From Anaerolineae bacterium (GTDB lineage: Bacteria > Chloroflexota > Anaerolineae > 4572-78 > J111): a stretch of DNA of 13,661 nt. Each line of letters starts with the position of its first letter. The stretch's first letter is position 1. Shown here piece by piece: positions 4,458 to 13,596 of this stretch. The notes under the pieces were generated by a model. That model was not told where the DNA came from, did not search any database, and was given only the letters and a program-made list of their open reading frames with translations. The position numbers and the translations under genes are program-made. The stretch is taken from contig JAGRBY010000137.1 of assembly GCA_020433835.1 (NCBI GenBank), forward strand, positions 1 to 13,661, given 5' to 3'.

Positions 4458-4483
4458 GTAGGACAAACTTAAGTTTGTCCTAC
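4458..4483. repeat. 26-bp perfect palindrome upstream of the IolE-like gene
   Basis: The half-site GTAGGACAAACTT (4458-4470) is followed immediately by its exact reverse complement (4471-4483). It lies 25-50 bases before the IolE-like start codon, downstream of the predicted promoter. It could be an operator (core GACAAA-N6-TTTGTC), an mRNA hairpin close to the ribosome site, or one copy of a dispersed palindromic repeat. The same core recurs at 13632-13651. Confidence 0.8.
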
Positions 4484-5564: not shown

Positions 5565-6347
5565 ATGGCTCAACATAACAAGATATATCTACAAGCATTT
5601 TATTACGATATTGCTTTGGGTCGCGATGTAGGGCCGGAGGTAGACTTTTTTCTTGATGCCTACCAACACTATACCGGGTCTGAACTAAAATCTGCGCTTG
5701 AAATTGCCTGCGGTCCCGGCTACCATGCACGGGCGCTGGCACAACGGGGTATCGATACGGTTGGTTTAGATTTGCATCCGGAAATGATTGATTTTGCGAA
5801 AAATCAACAGGGAGGCAACGCAGATAACCTAAGCTGGATTACCGGGGATATGCGGCATTTTCAACTTGAGCAGCCGGTTGATATGGCGGTTTGCGTGTTT
5901 GATGGATTTGATCCGTTACTTACCAATGATGATATCATCCGCCATTTTCATTCCGTCGCCGAAAATCTCAACCCGCACGGTCTCTATTTGATTCAATACA
6001 CTCATCCCAGGTATTGTTCTCTTCAAGATTATGGATCTTTCTATTATGAGGGAGAACGGGATAATATTAAGGTCATTATCCATTGGGCTATTAACAACCC
6101 TGTATTTGATTTAATTACTGCCACCGCCGAAGTGGAAACAAAAATGTACGTTTGTCATAATGGACAGGAATCCACTACCGTCTACACGGCGATAGAGAGA
6201 TTGTTCACACCTCAAGAGTTTCCGCTGTTGGCTCAGCTATCGAATAGACTGCGCGTTATTGGCTGGCACGGTGACTTTGATCTTCGGCAGCCGTTTGATA
6301 ACTCTGCGGCGTCCCAATATATGATTTGTTTATTGCAAAAAATATAG
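5565..6347 (+). CDS. Class I SAM-dependent methyltransferase
   Basis: A 260-residue Rossmann-type methyltransferase. Motif I is LEIACGPGYHA (45-55), the acidic residue ending strand 2 is in GLDLHPEMI (67-75), motif II is GDMRHF (94-99), and VDMAVCVFDGFDPLLT (105-120) marks strand 4. The C-terminal strands IERLFTPQEF and LRVIGWHGDFDLRQPF are typical of small-molecule or generic methyltransferases of this length. The acceptor is unknown. It is the first gene of the plus-strand operon, ending 15 bases before the SET-domain gene; its TAG stop sits in the AGGAG ribosome site of that next gene. The start at 5565 lacks a strong Shine-Dalgarno. Two methyltransferases of unrelated folds side by side is unusual and suggests a shared or sequential target. 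Confidence 0.85.
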   Translation: MAQHNKIYLQAFYYDIALGRDVGPEVDFFLDAYQHYTGSELKSALEIACGPGYHARALAQRGIDTVGLDLHPEMIDFAKNQQGGNADNLSWITGDMRHFQLEQPVDMAVCVFDGFDPLLTNDDIIRHFHSVAENLNPHGLYLIQYTHPRYCSLQDYGSFYYEGERDNIKVIIHWAINNPVFDLITATAEVETKMYVCHNGQESTTVYTAIERLFTPQEFPLLAQLSNRLRVIGWHGDFDLRQPFDNSAASQYMICLLQKI

Positions 6348-6362
6348 GAGACTCATTGGCAT

Positions 6363-6905
6363 ATGCTTCAACAGCCAACGTCTTATCTATCGCCAAAATT
6401 AATAAGCAAAGTTGATCCTGACAAAGGCGGACACGGCGTTATTGCCCGAACATCAATACAGGCTGGAGAACTGCTTGTGGTGTGGGGCGGTGAAGTTGTC
6501 AGTGAAACGCAGCTTATTCATTTTACACAAGCTCAACAGCGACGCGGCATTCAAATAGAGGAAGATTTGTATTTAATTCCTCGCCGGATTGGGCCAGCCG
6601 ATTACGTTAATCACTCTTGCGAACCCAATGCGGGTTTAAGTGGGCAAATCAGCCTCGTAGCTATACGAAATATAGAGCCTGGAGAAGAGGTGTGTTTTGA
6701 TTACGCCACGAGCGATGGCAGCCCTTACGACGAATTTGAATGTAGTTGTAACGCGCCCACCTGTCGAGGCTATATTACAGGGAATGACTGGCGCAATCCC
6801 ATTTTGTGGCACAAATATGAAGGCTATTTTTCGCCCTATCTTCAGCGTCGTATTAATCAGTTAAAGCAACAGATAAATACTATATCGCCGGCTATCATTA
6901 TTTGA
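6363..6905 (+). CDS. SET domain protein-lysine methyltransferase-like protein
   Basis: A 180-residue protein that is almost entirely a SET domain. GGHGVIARTSIQAGELLVVWGGEVV (22-46) gives the first SAM-contact strands. YVNHSCEPNAGL (81-92) holds the diagnostic NHSCxPN, and EPGEEVCFDYA (105-115) holds the catalytic-region E-x-x-x-DY motif. It is followed by ECSCNAPTCRG with C127, C129 and C134, a C-x-C-x4-C post-SET motif that with the NHSC cysteine could bind one zinc ion. The residual C terminus (140-180) is helical, with a QRRINQLKQQ segment. SET enzymes methylate lysine side chains of proteins; bacterial ones are rare, often poorly studied and sometimes acquired. The start follows AGGAG at 12 bases. 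The next gene begins 10 bases downstream. Confidence 0.9.
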   Translation: MLQQPTSYLSPKLISKVDPDKGGHGVIARTSIQAGELLVVWGGEVVSETQLIHFTQAQQRRGIQIEEDLYLIPRRIGPADYVNHSCEPNAGLSGQISLVAIRNIEPGEEVCFDYATSDGSPYDEFECSCNAPTCRGYITGNDWRNPILWHKYEGYFSPYLQRRINQLKQQINTISPAIII

Positions 6906-6915
6906 AAGAATAGGC

Positions 6916-8271
6916 ATGGCATTTCTAGATCGTCTCTTTAGGCTTTACCCAACCGAACGAGGACTCGTTCTCACGTTAGGGTTTCTTCTTTTAAGTAACT
7001 CCCTCGCGCTTAATTTATCGGATGTCGTGGCGATCAGCGGCTTTTTAAGCGATGTTGGCCCCAACGGATTCCTGGTGGTATGGAGCATCAACATGCTGCT
7101 TATCGTGTTGACAACCGGCGTCCAGTCGCTTGTGGTCGACCGATTCAATCGCATCAGAGTCATGCAGATGATGTGCCTATTTTTGATGCTGGCTTATATT
7201 ACGTTACCATTTATGTTCGCGGGTAATCTACTGCCGGATTGGTTTAACTATTCCACCCTTTACCTGCTGGCCGAACAGCAAGGCTTGTTCTTTCCCATTG
7301 TTTTTTGGGTACTGGCCAATGATATGTTCAACGCGGCTCAAGCCCGCCGATTGTTCCCCATAATATCAAGTTGGGCCTTTGCCGGACAGATTTTAGGCTT
7401 AAGTTTAGCCGGTTCCTTTCCATTTTTGCCCAACTACATCAACGTTACTTCCCGAGAACTGCTCTTTTTCAATGCTGTTCTCTTTTTATTAGCTTATATT
7501 CTGCTCACCCGCAGACTATATAAGGTGAAAATTCGGGAAACCCAATACAAGCGAGAAACGATACGCGAAACGTTAACTGAAGGCTGGGGATTTGTTCGCG
7601 AAGTACCTTCTTTTCGCTATTTAATGTTTTCAATGCTGGCTATCTATTTAGCGCTTACCATATTAGATTATCATTTTCTTGTCGAGTCTGATCGCACTCC
7701 GTTGTTAAATGAGGCCGGCAATTTTCAAACGTTTTATGCCAGCTTTCATTTGGTTTTAACGCTGGCTGCCGTTGCTATCCAGGGTTTGCTTACCAGCCGA
7801 ATTATCACAAAAATGGCATTAAAGAATACATTTTTTATTTTGCCGTCTATGTTATTAGCCAGTGCTGTCGCTGTGTTGGCTATTCCGGGGCTAATTAGCG
7901 CCGCGCTGGGGTTAGGTGTTCCTTATCTAACCAAAGACTCCATTGACGAATCGGCTCAAAAATCGCTCCAGGCGCTGGTGCCGGAAGAGCGTCGGGGGCG
8001 GGTTAGCCTCTTTATGGACAGCTATTTGTATGCTTTCGGCACTATTTTAGGCTGTTTGGTAACGGGTGTCGCGCTTATTATCGGTTATCAATGGCCCTAC
8101 ATCAACAATTCTTACTTTTATTTACCGCTTGCTGTGCTATCGGCGATCTGTGCGATAGTTGCTGTTTTCAAAATGCGAGCCGCCTATGAAACCAGTCTTT
8201 TGAACTGGCGACTAAAACGACGTAGTCGGCGGGCCAGTGCCACAAGCGTCTTCGAGCTGTTAGATTTATAG
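6916..8271 (+). CDS. MFS/NTT-like (ATP-ADP translocase-related) membrane transporter
   Basis: A 451-residue polytopic protein with about 11-12 hydrophobic segments, at about 16-36, 45-70, 83-104, 115-135, 145-165, 180-197, 235-255, 271-293, 305-340 (possibly two), 370-390 and 398-420. A cytosolic central loop KVKIRETQYKRETIRETLTEG lies between the halves. The conserved segment near residues 344-366, including LVPEERRGRVSLFMDSY, resembles the C-terminal RGRV...D signature of the Npt1/Npt2-like MFS proteins that surround the nucleotide transporter family. I expect a 12-helix carrier in the cytoplasmic membrane. The substrate is unknown, and in free-living bacteria these relatives are not shown to move ATP. 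The C terminus is strongly basic (RLKRRSRRAS). The gene lies 10 bases after the SET gene and 39 bases before the sensor gene. Confidence 0.7.
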   Translation: MAFLDRLFRLYPTERGLVLTLGFLLLSNSLALNLSDVVAISGFLSDVGPNGFLVVWSINMLLIVLTTGVQSLVVDRFNRIRVMQMMCLFLMLAYITLPFMFAGNLLPDWFNYSTLYLLAEQQGLFFPIVFWVLANDMFNAAQARRLFPIISSWAFAGQILGLSLAGSFPFLPNYINVTSRELLFFNAVLFLLAYILLTRRLYKVKIRETQYKRETIRETLTEGWGFVREVPSFRYLMFSMLAIYLALTILDYHFLVESDRTPLLNEAGNFQTFYASFHLVLTLAAVAIQGLLTSRIITKMALKNTFFILPSMLLASAVAVLAIPGLISAALGLGVPYLTKDSIDESAQKSLQALVPEERRGRVSLFMDSYLYAFGTILGCLVTGVALIIGYQWPYINNSYFYLPLAVLSAICAIVAVFKMRAAYETSLLNWRLKRRSRRASATSVFELLDL

Positions 8272-8310
8272 CGTTCGCCGCGTTATATAACGAATAAAAA
8301 GGATAGCATT

Positions 8311-9543
8311 ATGACTTTGCGGAAAAAAACGCTCATATTTATCGGATTAACCCTAACAGCGCTTATTATTGTTCTCTATTTTGCTTTGCGATATGTTTTA
8401 GTTGATGGTTTTGCGCAGGTAGAAGATCAGGTTGCTCAACGAAATGTCCAGCGGGTTTATGAGGCTTTCACCACAGAAGTTGATGCTATGGCCAGAAACA
8501 CCGGGGATTATGCCCCCTGGAACGATACGTATAACTTCATTGAAGATAAGAACCAACAATACATTGATGATAATATGGTGGATAGCACCTTTGCTAATCT
8601 TCAACTTAATGCTGTGCTTTTTTTCAATACCGCTCATGAAATCGTTTACAATAAAGAGTTTGATTTGCAAAACGGGATCGAAGTCCCGGTAGACGAAACT
8701 ATTCCGGCCCACTTTGCTGAGAATGATCAGCTCCTTCAACATAGCGAGACAACAAGTGTAAAATCTGGTTTTATTTTGTTCCCCAAAAACCCGATGCTGG
8801 TCGGCTCACGGCCTATCGTTACCAATGATTTTGAGGGGCCTATTCGCGGCACATTGGTCATGGGCCGCTTTCTCAATGATGAACTTATCTCGCAGTTAGA
8901 GAACCGTACGCAGTTTGTGCTCAACTTTCACCGGTTAGATGAACCACAAACAACGGCGACATTCGAGTCGATCATCGCCTCTATCACCGAGGAGACGCCG
9001 ATACTTATCGAACCTCTTAGCTCAGAACGATTAGCGGGCTATATGGTGCTACCGGATGTTTATGGGCAACCCGGATTACTTTTACAAGTAGAAATGCCCA
9101 GGACAGTCTATACGCAAAGCCAAACGAGTTTAAAGTTGCTCATTGCAGCACTCCTTATTGTTGGAGTGGTTTTCATTATTTTGACCTTATTGATGTTAGA
9201 AAAGCTAGTTTTATCACGGCTGGCTTCACTGCATGCCGGGGTTGAAGAAATTGGTTCAAGCGGCGATTTTTCCAAACGCCTTTCATTCGAGGGATCGGAT
9301 GAGATAGCTGACCTGGCAGACGGCATCAACACGATGCTACAGGATTTGCAAAATTCCTTACAGCGCGAGAAAGAACTTAAGCGCGAAGTTCAACAACTGC
9401 GGATTGAGATTGACCAAACCAAGAAAAAGAAACAGGTCAACGAGATTGTCGAAACCGACTTTTTCCAAGATCTACAGGCCAAGGCCAGAGCCATGCGTAA
9501 TCAGGCTAAAGAAAAAACCAAAAAAACCGATCCCGATCCGTAA
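8311..9543 (+). CDS. CHASE4-HAMP membrane sensor without an enzymatic output domain
   Basis: A 410-residue protein. TM1 is at about 8-28. An extracytoplasmic CHASE4 domain (about 40-265) carries the hallmark DYAPWNDTYNFIED and YIDDNM (66-89). TM2 is at about 274-297 (LLIAALLIVGVVFIILTLLM). HAMP follows at about 298-348 (SSGDFSKRL, SDEIADLADGINTML), then a coiled coil (about 345-376), then a short conserved-looking tail, VNEIVETDFFQDLQAKARAM (376-395), and a lysine-rich end. CHASE4-HAMP proteins normally continue into a histidine kinase, GGDEF, cyclase or methyl-accepting domain. Here the reading frame stops cleanly, with no such domain and no frameshift visible. The start is supported by AAAAAGGA seven bases before the ATG. 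The receiver gene begins 17 bases downstream, so the signal may pass by protein contact through the tail. A perfect 12-bp palindrome (8281-8292) precedes the ribosome site. Confidence 0.88.
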   Translation: MTLRKKTLIFIGLTLTALIIVLYFALRYVLVDGFAQVEDQVAQRNVQRVYEAFTTEVDAMARNTGDYAPWNDTYNFIEDKNQQYIDDNMVDSTFANLQLNAVLFFNTAHEIVYNKEFDLQNGIEVPVDETIPAHFAENDQLLQHSETTSVKSGFILFPKNPMLVGSRPIVTNDFEGPIRGTLVMGRFLNDELISQLENRTQFVLNFHRLDEPQTTATFESIIASITEETPILIEPLSSERLAGYMVLPDVYGQPGLLLQVEMPRTVYTQSQTSLKLLIAALLIVGVVFIILTLLMLEKLVLSRLASLHAGVEEIGSSGDFSKRLSFEGSDEIADLADGINTMLQDLQNSLQREKELKREVQQLRIEIDQTKKKKQVNEIVETDFFQDLQAKARAMRNQAKEKTKKTDPDP

Positions 9544-9560
9544 ACATTACCGAAACTGTT

Positions 9561-9983
9561 ATGACTTTACTTGATGCCAGTGATCCGAAAAACGTTCACA
9601 TCCTGCTTATAGAAGACAATATACAAAATAGCGTTCTCATTGGCCGGTTACTAGAGTCGATTGGAGTTCAAAATTATAGCTGTATCTTCTCCGGTCGTGA
9701 TCTATTAGAGGCCACACGCACAATGCCACGTCTTGACCTTATTTTGCTTGATCTACATCTTCCGTTTGAAGATGGCTTTGAAGTTCTCTCCAAAATCCGC
9801 TCAACACCCCGTATTGCTAACAGTCTCGTTGTTGCCGTTACGGCTGACGCTCATCTGGGGACGATGAAAAGAGCTCGAAAGGCCGGTTTTGACGGTTTTT
9901 TAGGCAAACCGATTGATCCTGATCTATTTCCAAAACACATTATTACAATTTTACATGGTCAAATGGTGTGGCATCTGGGTTAG
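9561..9983 (+). CDS. Stand-alone response regulator receiver protein
   Basis: A 140-residue CheY-like single receiver. The acidic pair is E18-D19 (LLIEDN), the phosphoacceptor is D64 in LILLDLHLP, the switch threonine is T94 in VVAVTADA, and the lysine is K116 in GFLGKPIDP. All key residues are intact, so phosphorylation is expected. There is no DNA-binding or enzymatic output. It is the last gene of the operon, 17 bases after the CHASE4 sensor, and an intrinsic terminator follows 33 bases after its stop. No histidine kinase is encoded in the window, so the phosphate donor must come from elsewhere or the protein acts as a docking partner. The sequence style resembles receivers of the DivK/CheY type. 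There is no good Shine-Dalgarno before the ATG. Confidence 0.92.
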   Translation: MTLLDASDPKNVHILLIEDNIQNSVLIGRLLESIGVQNYSCIFSGRDLLEATRTMPRLDLILLDLHLPFEDGFEVLSKIRSTPRIANSLVVAVTADAHLGTMKRARKAGFDGFLGKPIDPDLFPKHIITILHGQMVWHLG

Positions 9984-10015
9984 GTGTTCATTAGAGGGAA
10001 AAGAGCAGTAAAGGG

Positions 10016-10044
10016 AAAAAGCCGGGTAGATGGCCCGGCTTTTT
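10016..10044 (+). terminator. Intrinsic terminator of the five-gene operon
   Basis: GCCGGG (10021-10026) and CCCGGC (10034-10039) form a GC stem with a 7-base loop. It is flanked by AAAAA (10016-10020) and TTTTT (10040-10044), so the stem can extend to 11 bp and ends in a U-run. It lies 33 bases after the receiver stop. The symmetry means it could also stop transcription from the opposite strand. Confidence 0.9.
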
Positions 10045-11756: not shown

Positions 11757-12503
11757 TTAGAATGGATAGAGGTATGGTTGATCGGGAACATCTGTTAAGG
11801 TTACCGAAGCGGCCTCGACAATCGGCATCGTTTCGCCTTCAAATTCACCCGGCTGTAAAACACCCGCAACTTCAACCCATTGATCGTCTTCCAACGTCAG
11901 GCTATCGGGCCAATTGACAACAAGCCCCAATGGGGCGGCATCGGCCGCGCAGCAGCTTACAACAAAGCGGCTAACCATAAAGGTTTCATCGGCAAAACGC
12001 TCGTCGCGATAGACAAAGCCCACCAGTTTAACCTCTTGTCCGGCCAGCGCCGCCGGATCGGATGCTTGCCGAAATTCAACAATCCAATCGAGGATATTTT
12101 TTTCTCCGTGGGGTTTGGATAAGATAGTATTGCTCTCCGGCGCGGCCGCCGATGTTAGCGACTCGATACTGATATCACGGTTGGTCATCGCTGCCGCACC
12201 CAATGGTTTGGGAGGAACAACCAGACCCAAAACAATCGGCGACGCGATTAGCATAAGCCCTATCCAACTAAGCTGATCATGGTGATGATATTCATGATCG
12301 TGATCGTGGTGATCATGCTGATGGGCGTTATCCACAAAGCGGTAGCGATAACTGATTCCAACCAGGAGAAGACCGAGCGCCGCAAAAATCGTCAACCAAA
12401 AGAAGCGTTCATTGATGTAAAAAAACAGCTTCCCGCTAAGAATACGGCTGAATAAAAACAGCCCCATGGCGATGAGGAGAATCGCTTTCCAACTCGATTT
12501 CAT
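11757..12503 (-). CDS. TIGR03943/DUF1980 family permease partner with His-rich loop
   Basis: A 248-residue protein matching the YcgQ-type family. Two N-terminal hydrophobic segments lie at about 5-22 and 33-50, followed by a metal-binding-like loop HQHDHHDHDHEYHHHD (61-76; nine His, four Asp). A third segment is at about 79-97. The extracytoplasmic C-terminal part carries LAGQEVKLVGFVYRD (153-167), FMVSRFVVSCCAADAAPLG (175-193, with the C184-C185 pair) and DDQWVEVAGVL. This family is nearly always encoded beside a COG0701 permease, as here, where it follows two bases after the permease stop. The pair is thought to move a metal or metal-linked substrate, but the function is not settled. I use the ATG at 12503; a TTG at 12512 would overlap the upstream gene and adds only three residues. 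The ribosome site is weak, so translation is probably coupled. Confidence 0.85.
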   Translation of the reverse strand: MKSSWKAILLIAMGLFLFSRILSGKLFFYINERFFWLTIFAALGLLLVGISYRYRFVDNAHQHDHHDHDHEYHHHDQLSWIGLMLIASPIVLGLVVPPKPLGAAAMTNRDISIESLTSAAAPESNTILSKPHGEKNILDWIVEFRQASDPAALAGQEVKLVGFVYRDERFADETFMVSRFVVSCCAADAAPLGLVVNWPDSLTLEDDQWVEVAGVLQPGEFEGETMPIVEAASVTLTDVPDQPYLYPF

Positions 12504-12505
12504 GG

Positions 12506-13561
12506 TTACCAACTCACATTGAGATTCAAATAGACCGTTATCATTAGCGTCGCCATCAGCGGCAGCAGAATAAGATAAAGCACGATACGTCGCTTAAAAA
12601 CACCTAAGAACATCAGAGAACTTTTGATATCAACCATCGGGCCAAAAATAAGAAAGGCCAGGATAGCCGCCGGCGGAAATGAATTAGCAAAAGCCAGCGC
12701 CAGAAACGAGTCAACTGTGGAGCAAACCGAAAGCACAAACGCCAGTATTATCATCGCGATGATAGAAGTAACGGAGCCTTCGCCAAGGGCCAGCAGATAA
12801 GGCTGCGGGACCAATGTTTGCATGGCCGCAGCCAACATTGAGCCGGCAACCAGATAGCGCCCCATATCAAAAAAATCGTCGCCACCGATGCTCAGCGCAT
12901 TCCAAAAGCGATGCCCCTTACTCTCAGCCTGGGAATGATGATGATGCTCATGTTTGATGGAGGCAAGCTGATCCGAGCGTAGAATATCTTTTGGTTCGGC
13001 AAAGTGGAAAATAAACCCGATAACAGACGCAATCAAAAAACTCAAAGCAAAACGGGCAAAAAGAATTGTACCCCAGCCAAATGCAGCATACGTACTGGCG
13101 AAAACAATAGGATTGATGACCGGAGCGGCCAACATAAAAGCGATACCCATCGAAATAGGCAGCCCTTTTTGGTACAGCCGCCGGGTGACAGGCACCACAC
13201 CACACTCGCAGACCGGGAAAACCAGCCCCAAGCCGCCACCGACCAACGCTGCCGAAATGGGATTACGGGGAACAAAGCGATAAAGCAACTCATTATTAAC
13301 ATAAACTTCCAGCAAGCCGGACACGATAGAACCGGCCAATAAAAAAGGTACGGCCTCGATAAAAATGCTGAGAAAAATGGTCACAAACGTTTGGGCTTGG
13401 CCGCCCAGGGAGTCGGTTAGGGCATTATCGCGAATGATAACGAATGCTGCCAGCACCAAAATAAGCAGCACGAGGCGCAGCGCAGCCTTAGAGCGAAATA
13501 AACCTGTCACCGGTTTTGGACCTATTTCAGATGGCGGTGAATGCGTTTCGGTATATTTCAT
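12506..13561 (-). CDS. COG0701/DUF318 permease (ArsP/YcgR-like)
   Basis: A 351-residue permease with about eight or more membrane segments in two repeated halves. Conserved blocks are [17 protein letters not shown] (71-87), [18 protein letters not shown] (112-129, the family CxC motif C118/C120), [17 protein letters not shown] (141-157), [16 protein letters not shown] (277-292) and [15 protein letters not shown] (306-320). The cytosolic loop between the halves has a histidine cluster HEHHHH (204-209). Relatives include ArsP, which exports organoarsenicals, and YcgR, paired with a TIGR03943 protein; the pairing here favours the YcgR type. I chose the ATG at 13561. The upstream ATG at 13570 lies inside the -10 box of a consensus promoter and so would not be on the transcript. 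The mRNA is then leaderless or nearly so. This is the first gene of a three-gene operon. Confidence 0.88.
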
Positions 13562-13568
13562 CGAAGAC

Positions 13569-13596
13569 ATTATAATTTAGCCGGGAAACGTGTCAA
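13569..13596 (-). promoter_or_regulatory. Consensus sigma70 promoter of the permease operon (leaderless)
   Basis: On the minus strand a perfect TTGACA (13596-13591) and a perfect TATAAT (13574-13569) are separated by 16 bases. Seven bases separate the -10 from the ATG at 13561, so the predicted +1 is at or within a base or two of that start codon. This decides against the ATG at 13570, which overlaps the -10. Confidence 0.7.

Follow-up and report, generated by a model that had tools for sequence, protein, structure and literature searches.

What does a sensor signal to when it lacks an output domain of its own? This question is raised by a five-gene operon on contig JAGRBY010000137.1 of an Anaerolineae bacterium (assembly GCA_020433835.1; the entire stretch of 13,661 nucleotides is referred to here as the window), in which a membrane carrier gene is followed by a gene for a CHASE4-HAMP sensor that, based on a Pfam scan, does not contain a kinase or cyclase domain. 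A preliminary description of the operon had proposed that this sensor relays its signal by coiled-coil contact to a lone receiver encoded downstream, coupled to protein methylation and transport. The best reading of the present comparison is that a conserved signalling locus, the core of which consists of an NTT-like carrier and a sensor ending in a distinct tail, is represented here by a variant specific to this lineage. Judged from gene associations, this sensor would on balance be expected to use its tail to signal to a MinD-like ATPase, the gene for which lies elsewhere in the genome, and not to the receiver.

The conserved carrier-sensor pair and its C-terminal tail

The earlier assignment of the carrier as NTT-like was supported by its predicted fold, for which plant AtNTT1 (9j3m) was the closest solved structure (template modelling score of 0.72 by query length, 13% identity). 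The top three PDB matches were AtNTT1 and C. pneumoniae NTT1, which assigns the carrier to the NTT version of the major facilitator fold. The window carrier matches Pfam MFS_1 only and not TLC (PF03219), a family that is carried by many of its relatives at ~49-56% identity. The same fold is found in the NTT transporters of free-living bacteria and in the NTT-HEAT and NTT-HEAT-cNBD fusions of PMC5381601, and the unfused NTT clade mentioned in the accessible text of that study probably includes the window carrier. This text mentions no sensor, tail or MinD link, and the word HAMP is absent from the main text of the study. Viral contigs searched with the carrier returned no match.

An alignment of 20 carrier homologues led to 35 loci in Chloroflexota and Cyanobacteria. 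A homologue of the C-terminal part of the sensor was present in 29 of 36 sequences (these loci plus the window), as a rule directly downstream and on the same strand, and the carrier-sensor pair was shown to recur in Chloroflexota, Cyanobacteria and Deinococcota. Among 347 genomes, the carrier was found in 16 of the 201 from Chloroflexota and in two of the 146 from Cyanobacteria, and all 18 carrier-positive genomes harboured genes encoding the conserved sensor end (designated here as tail genes). In 17 of these, a tail gene on the same strand follows the carrier gene within 2.3 kb; the remaining carrier lies close to a contig end.

Gene neighbourhoods were subsequently counted for 52 annotated carrier loci (including the window; some are closely related and the counts are not independent), each as a same-strand run of three genes upstream and four downstream with gaps of ≤260 bases. 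These runs contained a tail gene in 44 loci, a MinD-like gene in 22 and a GNAT-like gene in 21, followed by ATP-grasp genes of two types (6 and 2), radical S-adenosylmethionine genes (4, aminomutase-like by eye), C39-peptidase-like genes (3), SET genes (3), a cyclase gene (1) and a receiver gene (1). The recurrence of the tail gene argues against the alternative that the operon is a loose collection of cotranscribed genes. As the gene caller kept the longest open reading frames (ORFs), some true genes were missed, among them a gene for a 341-residue tail sensor, one for a 116-residue winged-helix protein and a SET gene in the Deinococcus locus L130, the last of which brings SET to 4 of the 52 loci. 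Eight loci had no tail gene in the counted run. In L005 and L015 one is present further along on the same strand, L013, L016, L022 and L031 reach a contig end nearby, and L026 and L033 show none. The 52 do not include L006 and L054, which duplicate each other on a single contig and have the carrier close to its end; the script missed the carrier ORF in both.

The C terminus of the sensor is a conserved module, which had been overlooked in the preliminary description. BLAST comparison of the window sensor with those of the other loci aligned mainly the C-terminal parts, except for locus L001, indicative of a variable sensing part; the L002 sensor, for example, matches HAMP and not CHASE4. The conserved end was present in 30 of the 31 sensor-cluster ORFs from the 35 loci and the window, the remaining one being cut by a contig end. 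Furthermore, the tail motif was found in the 11 best CHASE4 matches (P0121-P0131, 402-428 residues); the remaining 109 on the list, among which are short matches (P0134, P0143, P0171, P0190, P0231 and P0232; 284-393 residues, some labelled partial), do not show it. The two-helix tail has the consensus L-x-IEID-xx-K-xxx-QV-x-EI-xxx-D[F/Y]F-xx-LQ-x-KA-xxx-R, which across 114 ORFs reads L-x-IeID-xx-kr-xx-qV-x-eI-xxx-dfF-xx-Lq-x-ka-xxx-R, with a median of nine residues after it (>100 in seven ORFs). The tail is joined to various input domains, i.e. GAF (13 ORFs), cyclic-nucleotide (cNMP)-binding (10), CHASE2 (7), receiver (REC; 4) and GAF plus REC (3); the other 77 lack these domains according to the profiles used, and those among them that were Pfam-scanned have HAMP. 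For the window sensor, AlphaFold2 predicts a long helix (residues 330-380), a break (381-382) and a second helix (383-405) in a model with a mean pLDDT of 77 (<50 at residues 313-340), and the best structure matches of this model were CACHE-type sensing domains.

The tail had no convincing counterpart in Pfam or the PDB. Among 28 members, the best Pfam match had an E value of 0.0038 and no family was matched by more than six, and the best PDB match had an E value of 0.084. The Signaling helix shares with the tail a helical segment of ~40 residues beside signal domains; according to the accessible text of PMC1592074 it has a conserved ERT signature, which is absent from the 114-tail consensus. 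The latter closes with D[FY]F followed by another helix, and the Signaling helix was also rejected as a candidate. Separately, it was observed that short HAMP-tail proteins (161-163 residues) close a gene run in L098, which holds CheB-REC, DUF6272 and SiaC/STAS-like genes, and in L100, which holds genes of similar size, the first with a receiver.

A MinD-like ATPase clade associated with the tail

Locus annotation revealed that a gene for a MinD-like ATPase is repeatedly found beside tail genes. Its copies represent one group with the signature HSFRGGTGKSN, DTDIQSPGIHVLFG, DTHPGLNEETLLSI and YPDHP, and this group is referred to here as a clade on the basis of a score gap and the signature, not of a tree. 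The nearest solved relatives are MinD structures (1hyq, 8e-22). The residues R, G, G, T, G and K of RGGTGKS are invariant in 20 of 20 chosen canonical copies, while some degenerate copies deviate further; the clade thereby differs from the deviant Walker A motif of ParA/MinD proteins (xKGGxxK[T/S]), an arginine replacing the signature lysine. At least 7,964 clade candidates (E ≤1e-60) were obtained among 8,000 scored sequences.

The distribution of the tail and of the ATPase clade was shown to be closely matched (Fisher P values given here treat genomes as independent). In Chloroflexota (201 genomes), 26 genomes encode a tail and 26 a clade ATPase, with 25 encoding both (P=1e-29), and in Cyanobacteria (146 genomes) these numbers are 20, 24 and 20, respectively (P=5e-21). 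Since some of the clade sequences in the profile came from sample genomes of these two phyla, 108 further genomes (30 plus 78) that were new to the analysis were counted apart, and these yielded 11 with both, one with a tail alone (the match being marginal and containing a stop), one with the ATPase only and 95 with neither (P=4e-13). A check of contig positions revealed that no match in these further genomes coincides with a profile source: none of the 14 tail sources without an assigned genome fits, and two MinD sources that are 921 and 630 bases off represent other genes. In total, 56 of 455 genomes encode both tail and ATPase, two the tail only, six the ATPase only and 391 neither. The two genes are also co-localised, as 45 of 87 tail genes lie ≤8 kb from a clade ATPase gene compared with 0.6 expected. 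Of the 17 tail genes in the further genomes, seven lie this close, compared with 0.09 expected. For the other 42 of the 87, a different partner or an action in trans may be involved.

Many of these loci also encode a small winged-helix protein (35 ORFs, 90-158 residues where free-standing). In seven cases, all cyanobacterial, it is fused to MinD, and in one (L040) to a GAF-GAF-tail protein; of the 28 ORFs without a MinD fusion, which include the tail fusion, 20 lie ≤1.2 kb from a MinD gene. The Deinococcus plasmid NZ_CP092194.1 (L130) carries genes for, in order, a SpoIIE phosphatase, MinD, the winged-helix protein, a tail sensor, a second MinD copy (MinD'), the NTT carrier, a 192-residue ORF, SET and another tail sensor. 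Similarly, L064 (genome G046) combines MinD, MinD', NTT, GNAT-like, tail sensor and winged-helix genes in a single run. Such pairing of a canonical clade MinD with a lower-scoring or degenerate MinD' was found in L063-L067, L075, L130 and L110, and suggests a heterodimer. G001, the genome of locus L001, has its winged-helix, MinD and MinD' genes grouped in one run, located on a contig other than that of the carrier, so that the ATPase is expected to be encoded elsewhere in the genome in the lineage of the window.

Other surroundings of MinD-like genes were noted on plasmids. Those of L130 (Deinococcus), L133 (Nostoc NIES-3756) and L135 (Streptomyces) carry a run of AGE epimerase, STAS-type and GlgX genes followed by a MinD-like gene, with a SpoIIE phosphatase gene in two of the three; the Streptomyces MinD-like protein is more distant (38% identity). 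On those of L132 (Nostoc C057) and L134 (Pseudanabaena), the MinD-like gene lies near genes for cNMP-binding proteins and for precursors of ribosomally synthesised and post-translationally modified peptides, maturases or NHLP export, and its 400-residue neighbour in L132 is a DUF7005 protein. In L102, L104, L107 and L132, a protein of 864-892 residues is encoded between the tail and MinD genes, and those of L102, L104 and L132 gave no Pfam match.

The main rival to a MinD-like partner is a class III adenylate cyclase. If the tail acted on such a cyclase, the sensor would control cyclic AMP (cAMP), proteins with a cNMP-binding domain and a tail would read cAMP back, and the MinD link would be secondary. 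Cyclase genes, with or without AAA_16, are indeed found near tail genes (L009, L010, L012, L042, L043, L060, L072, L083, L085-L088 and L090), frequently so outside carrier loci as well; cNMP-binding domains are fused not only to tails but also to one NTT-HEAT protein (L075), and two of the sensor stubs are named 'adenylate cyclase' by their database source. Conversely, the CHASE4-HAMP cyclases among the matches listed lack the tail by motif, and the 52 carrier neighbourhoods contain a cyclase gene once compared with 22 times for MinD (these are neighbourhood counts; genome co-occurrence was computed for the MinD clade alone). The CHASE4-HAMP histidine kinases and adenylate cyclases share sensing and HAMP domains with the window sensor at up to 46% identity, but in the latter the tail would take the place of kinase or cyclase as output. 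A cyclase as the target of the tail is considered unlikely.

The second rival is that the ATPase positions the carrier-sensor complex, with the tail acting as an address label only and without signalling. According to the accessible text of PMC10241942, ParA/MinD (A/D) ATPases position cargos via short peptides of diverse partners, such as ParB, MinE and McdB, and many of these ATPases are orphans. The system described here resembles these in its MinD-like ATPase and in a genomically linked partner with a short shared element, and tails terminate proteins of many kinds. However, the partners described in that text use a positively charged, disordered N terminus, whereas the candidate element here is a C-terminal helical tail that follows signal-input domains and for which contact is putative. 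Moreover, the inputs joined to the tail (REC, cNMP, GAF, CHASE2 and HAMP sensors) are signal domains, several of them on soluble-looking proteins, and for this reason regulation fits better than placement, which is improbable as the sole role of the tail.

Several observations weigh against the proposed tail-ATPase link. Cyclase genes near some tail genes mean that the tail could act on cyclases instead, and the P values for co-occurrence ignore phylogeny. Nearly half of the tail genes (the 42 mentioned above) have no clade ATPase gene in the surrounding 8 kb, no MinD gene was found in the window itself despite the adjacency seen elsewhere, and no MinD-tail fusion was present among the ORFs examined. 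Six ATPase-positive genomes lack a profile-detected tail; on inspection, one of these (G343) has a cNMP-tail gene adjoining MinD, while no tail gene was found in the regions inspected of G197 and G321. Likewise, the carrier loci L026 and L033 have no tail gene within the available sequence, and for 52 of the 80 MinD ORFs a winged-helix gene is neither fused nor present ≤1.2 kb away. Finally, the tail helices of the sensor were modelled with moderate confidence only (pLDDT of about 58-74).

The window operon, its receiver and its accessory genes

The arrangement of the putative operon given in the preliminary description, i.e. five plus-strand genes of recognisable families, separated by gaps of 15, 10, 39 and 17 bases and closed by a strong terminator, was corroborated by the ORFs, Pfam matches and hairpin folding (Table 1). 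The terminator hairpin has a z score of -3.2, with 2 of 200 shuffles equally good. It was not on the plus-strand list of a simple pattern scan, probably because its T-run is drawn into the stem.

Table 1. Positions of the operon genes, sensor domains and terminator within the window
Feature	Position	Strand	Match or value
Class I S-adenosylmethionine-dependent methyltransferase gene	5565-6347	+	Pfam Methyltransf_25 (5.8e-15)
SET-domain methyltransferase gene	6363-6905	+	Pfam SET (6.6e-14)
NTT-like (ATP/ADP-carrier fold) membrane carrier gene, core	6916-8271	+	Pfam MFS_1 (4.6e-9)
CHASE4-HAMP sensor gene, core, ends in tail module	8311-9543	+	Pfam CHASE4 (3.4e-41), HAMP (2e-9)
CHASE4 (double-CACHE-like) sensing domain, residues 52-206	8464-8928	+	
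HAMP domain, residues 298-347	9202-9351	+	Pfam
Sensor tail core, residues 363-399	9397-9507	+	
Lone receiver (REC) protein gene	9561-9983	+	Pfam Response_reg (1.3e-16)
Intrinsic terminator hairpin, 12 bp	10016-10044	+	-19.4 kcal/mol

The nearest relative identified is L001, from an Anaerolineae metagenome-assembled genome, the carrier and sensor of which are 87-88% identical to those of the window and which has downstream genes in common with it. Outside the operon, positions 11757-13570 (minus strand) encode a DUF1980 protein and an ArsP_1-type permease; L001 has the same pair, followed by a gene that is Fur-like by eye. A palindrome with an 11-bp stem (positions 4458-4483), listed as terminator-like on both strands, overlaps the assigned 5' end of an iolE-like gene (minus strand) and lies upstream of a GNAT gene (plus strand).

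The proximity of the receiver gene, immediately downstream of the sensor gene, and the presence of SET at carrier loci of three phyla are consistent with the originally proposed relay to the receiver, coupled to methylation. Nonetheless, L001 has no receiver after its sensor, and the only carrier locus with a receiver in the counted run is the window itself (1 of 52), the receiver genes of L012, L057 and L059 being located further away. HisKA and HATPase domains are absent from the five operon proteins, leaving the receiver without a paired histidine kinase there, although one may be encoded elsewhere in the genome. The partner that is statistically linked to the sensor C terminus is the MinD-like ATPase. 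A relay to the receiver is not supported; the receiver was rejected as the sensor output because it is not conserved at the locus, and the relay model as a whole appears very unlikely. As for methylation of an operon member, the comparison speaks neither for it nor against it. As the class I methyltransferase family was found only in the window and L001 among the loci examined, it looks, like the receiver, to be a local addition.

The preliminary description had also suggested searching for a conserved neighbourhood of SET, CHASE4-HAMP and receiver homologues. Such a neighbourhood was found in part: SET, NTT and sensor genes recur together in Chloroflexota (window and L001), Cyanobacteria (L032) and Deinococcota (L130), but in no fixed order, in few loci and without a conserved receiver. 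The window protein qualifies as a SET protein by its Pfam match and by the residues NHSCxPN, GEEVxFDY and CxC...C in the alignment, which correspond to the NHSC, GEExxFDY and CxC...C motifs that we take to be typical of SET domains; for the annotated L130 ORF, the Pfam match is confined to the latter half of the profile. The window SET protein is 35% identical to that of Deinococcus over 130 residues and 29% to that of L032 over 152, whereas the latter two are mutually 55% identical, suggesting that the window SET gene could have entered the locus independently. GNAT-like and C39-like genes share the slot of SET, from which a role in protein modification was guessed, and the genes that surround the core (SET, GNAT-like, C39-peptidase-like and ATP-grasp) probably encode accessory proteins that modify proteins or peptides.

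A proposed signalling route

The computations show that signalling proteins with various input domains share the tail, and that the tail co-occurs and co-localises with the ATPase clade; with respect to direction, binding and effect, we infer the following route. An extracytoplasmic signal would pass through HAMP and a coiled coil to the tail, which would dock on a dimer of the MinD-like ATPase and alter its nucleotide cycle. The ATPase, together with the winged-helix protein, may then place or gate the carrier, or else influence transcription. As in G001, the ATPase gene would lie elsewhere in the genome in the lineage of the window.

More broadly, and more tentatively, many inputs (membrane CACHE/CHASE, receiver, cyclic-nucleotide, GAF and CHASE2) might converge via one tail on a dedicated MinD-like ATPase and winged-helix protein, with the MinD-type switch serving as a common second stage of signalling and not for cargo placement. 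A literature search, with most subscription journals outside its reach, returned among the matches listed no description of the tail, its ATPase partner or the locus, and no paper linking HAMP-tail sensors with MinD.

From the associations described here, a partner can be proposed for the MinD-like ATPases of this abundant clade, for which no described role was found, as well as an output for sensors that appear to lack one. If true, bacterial signal transduction would gain a further route, alongside kinases, cyclases and chemoreceptors.

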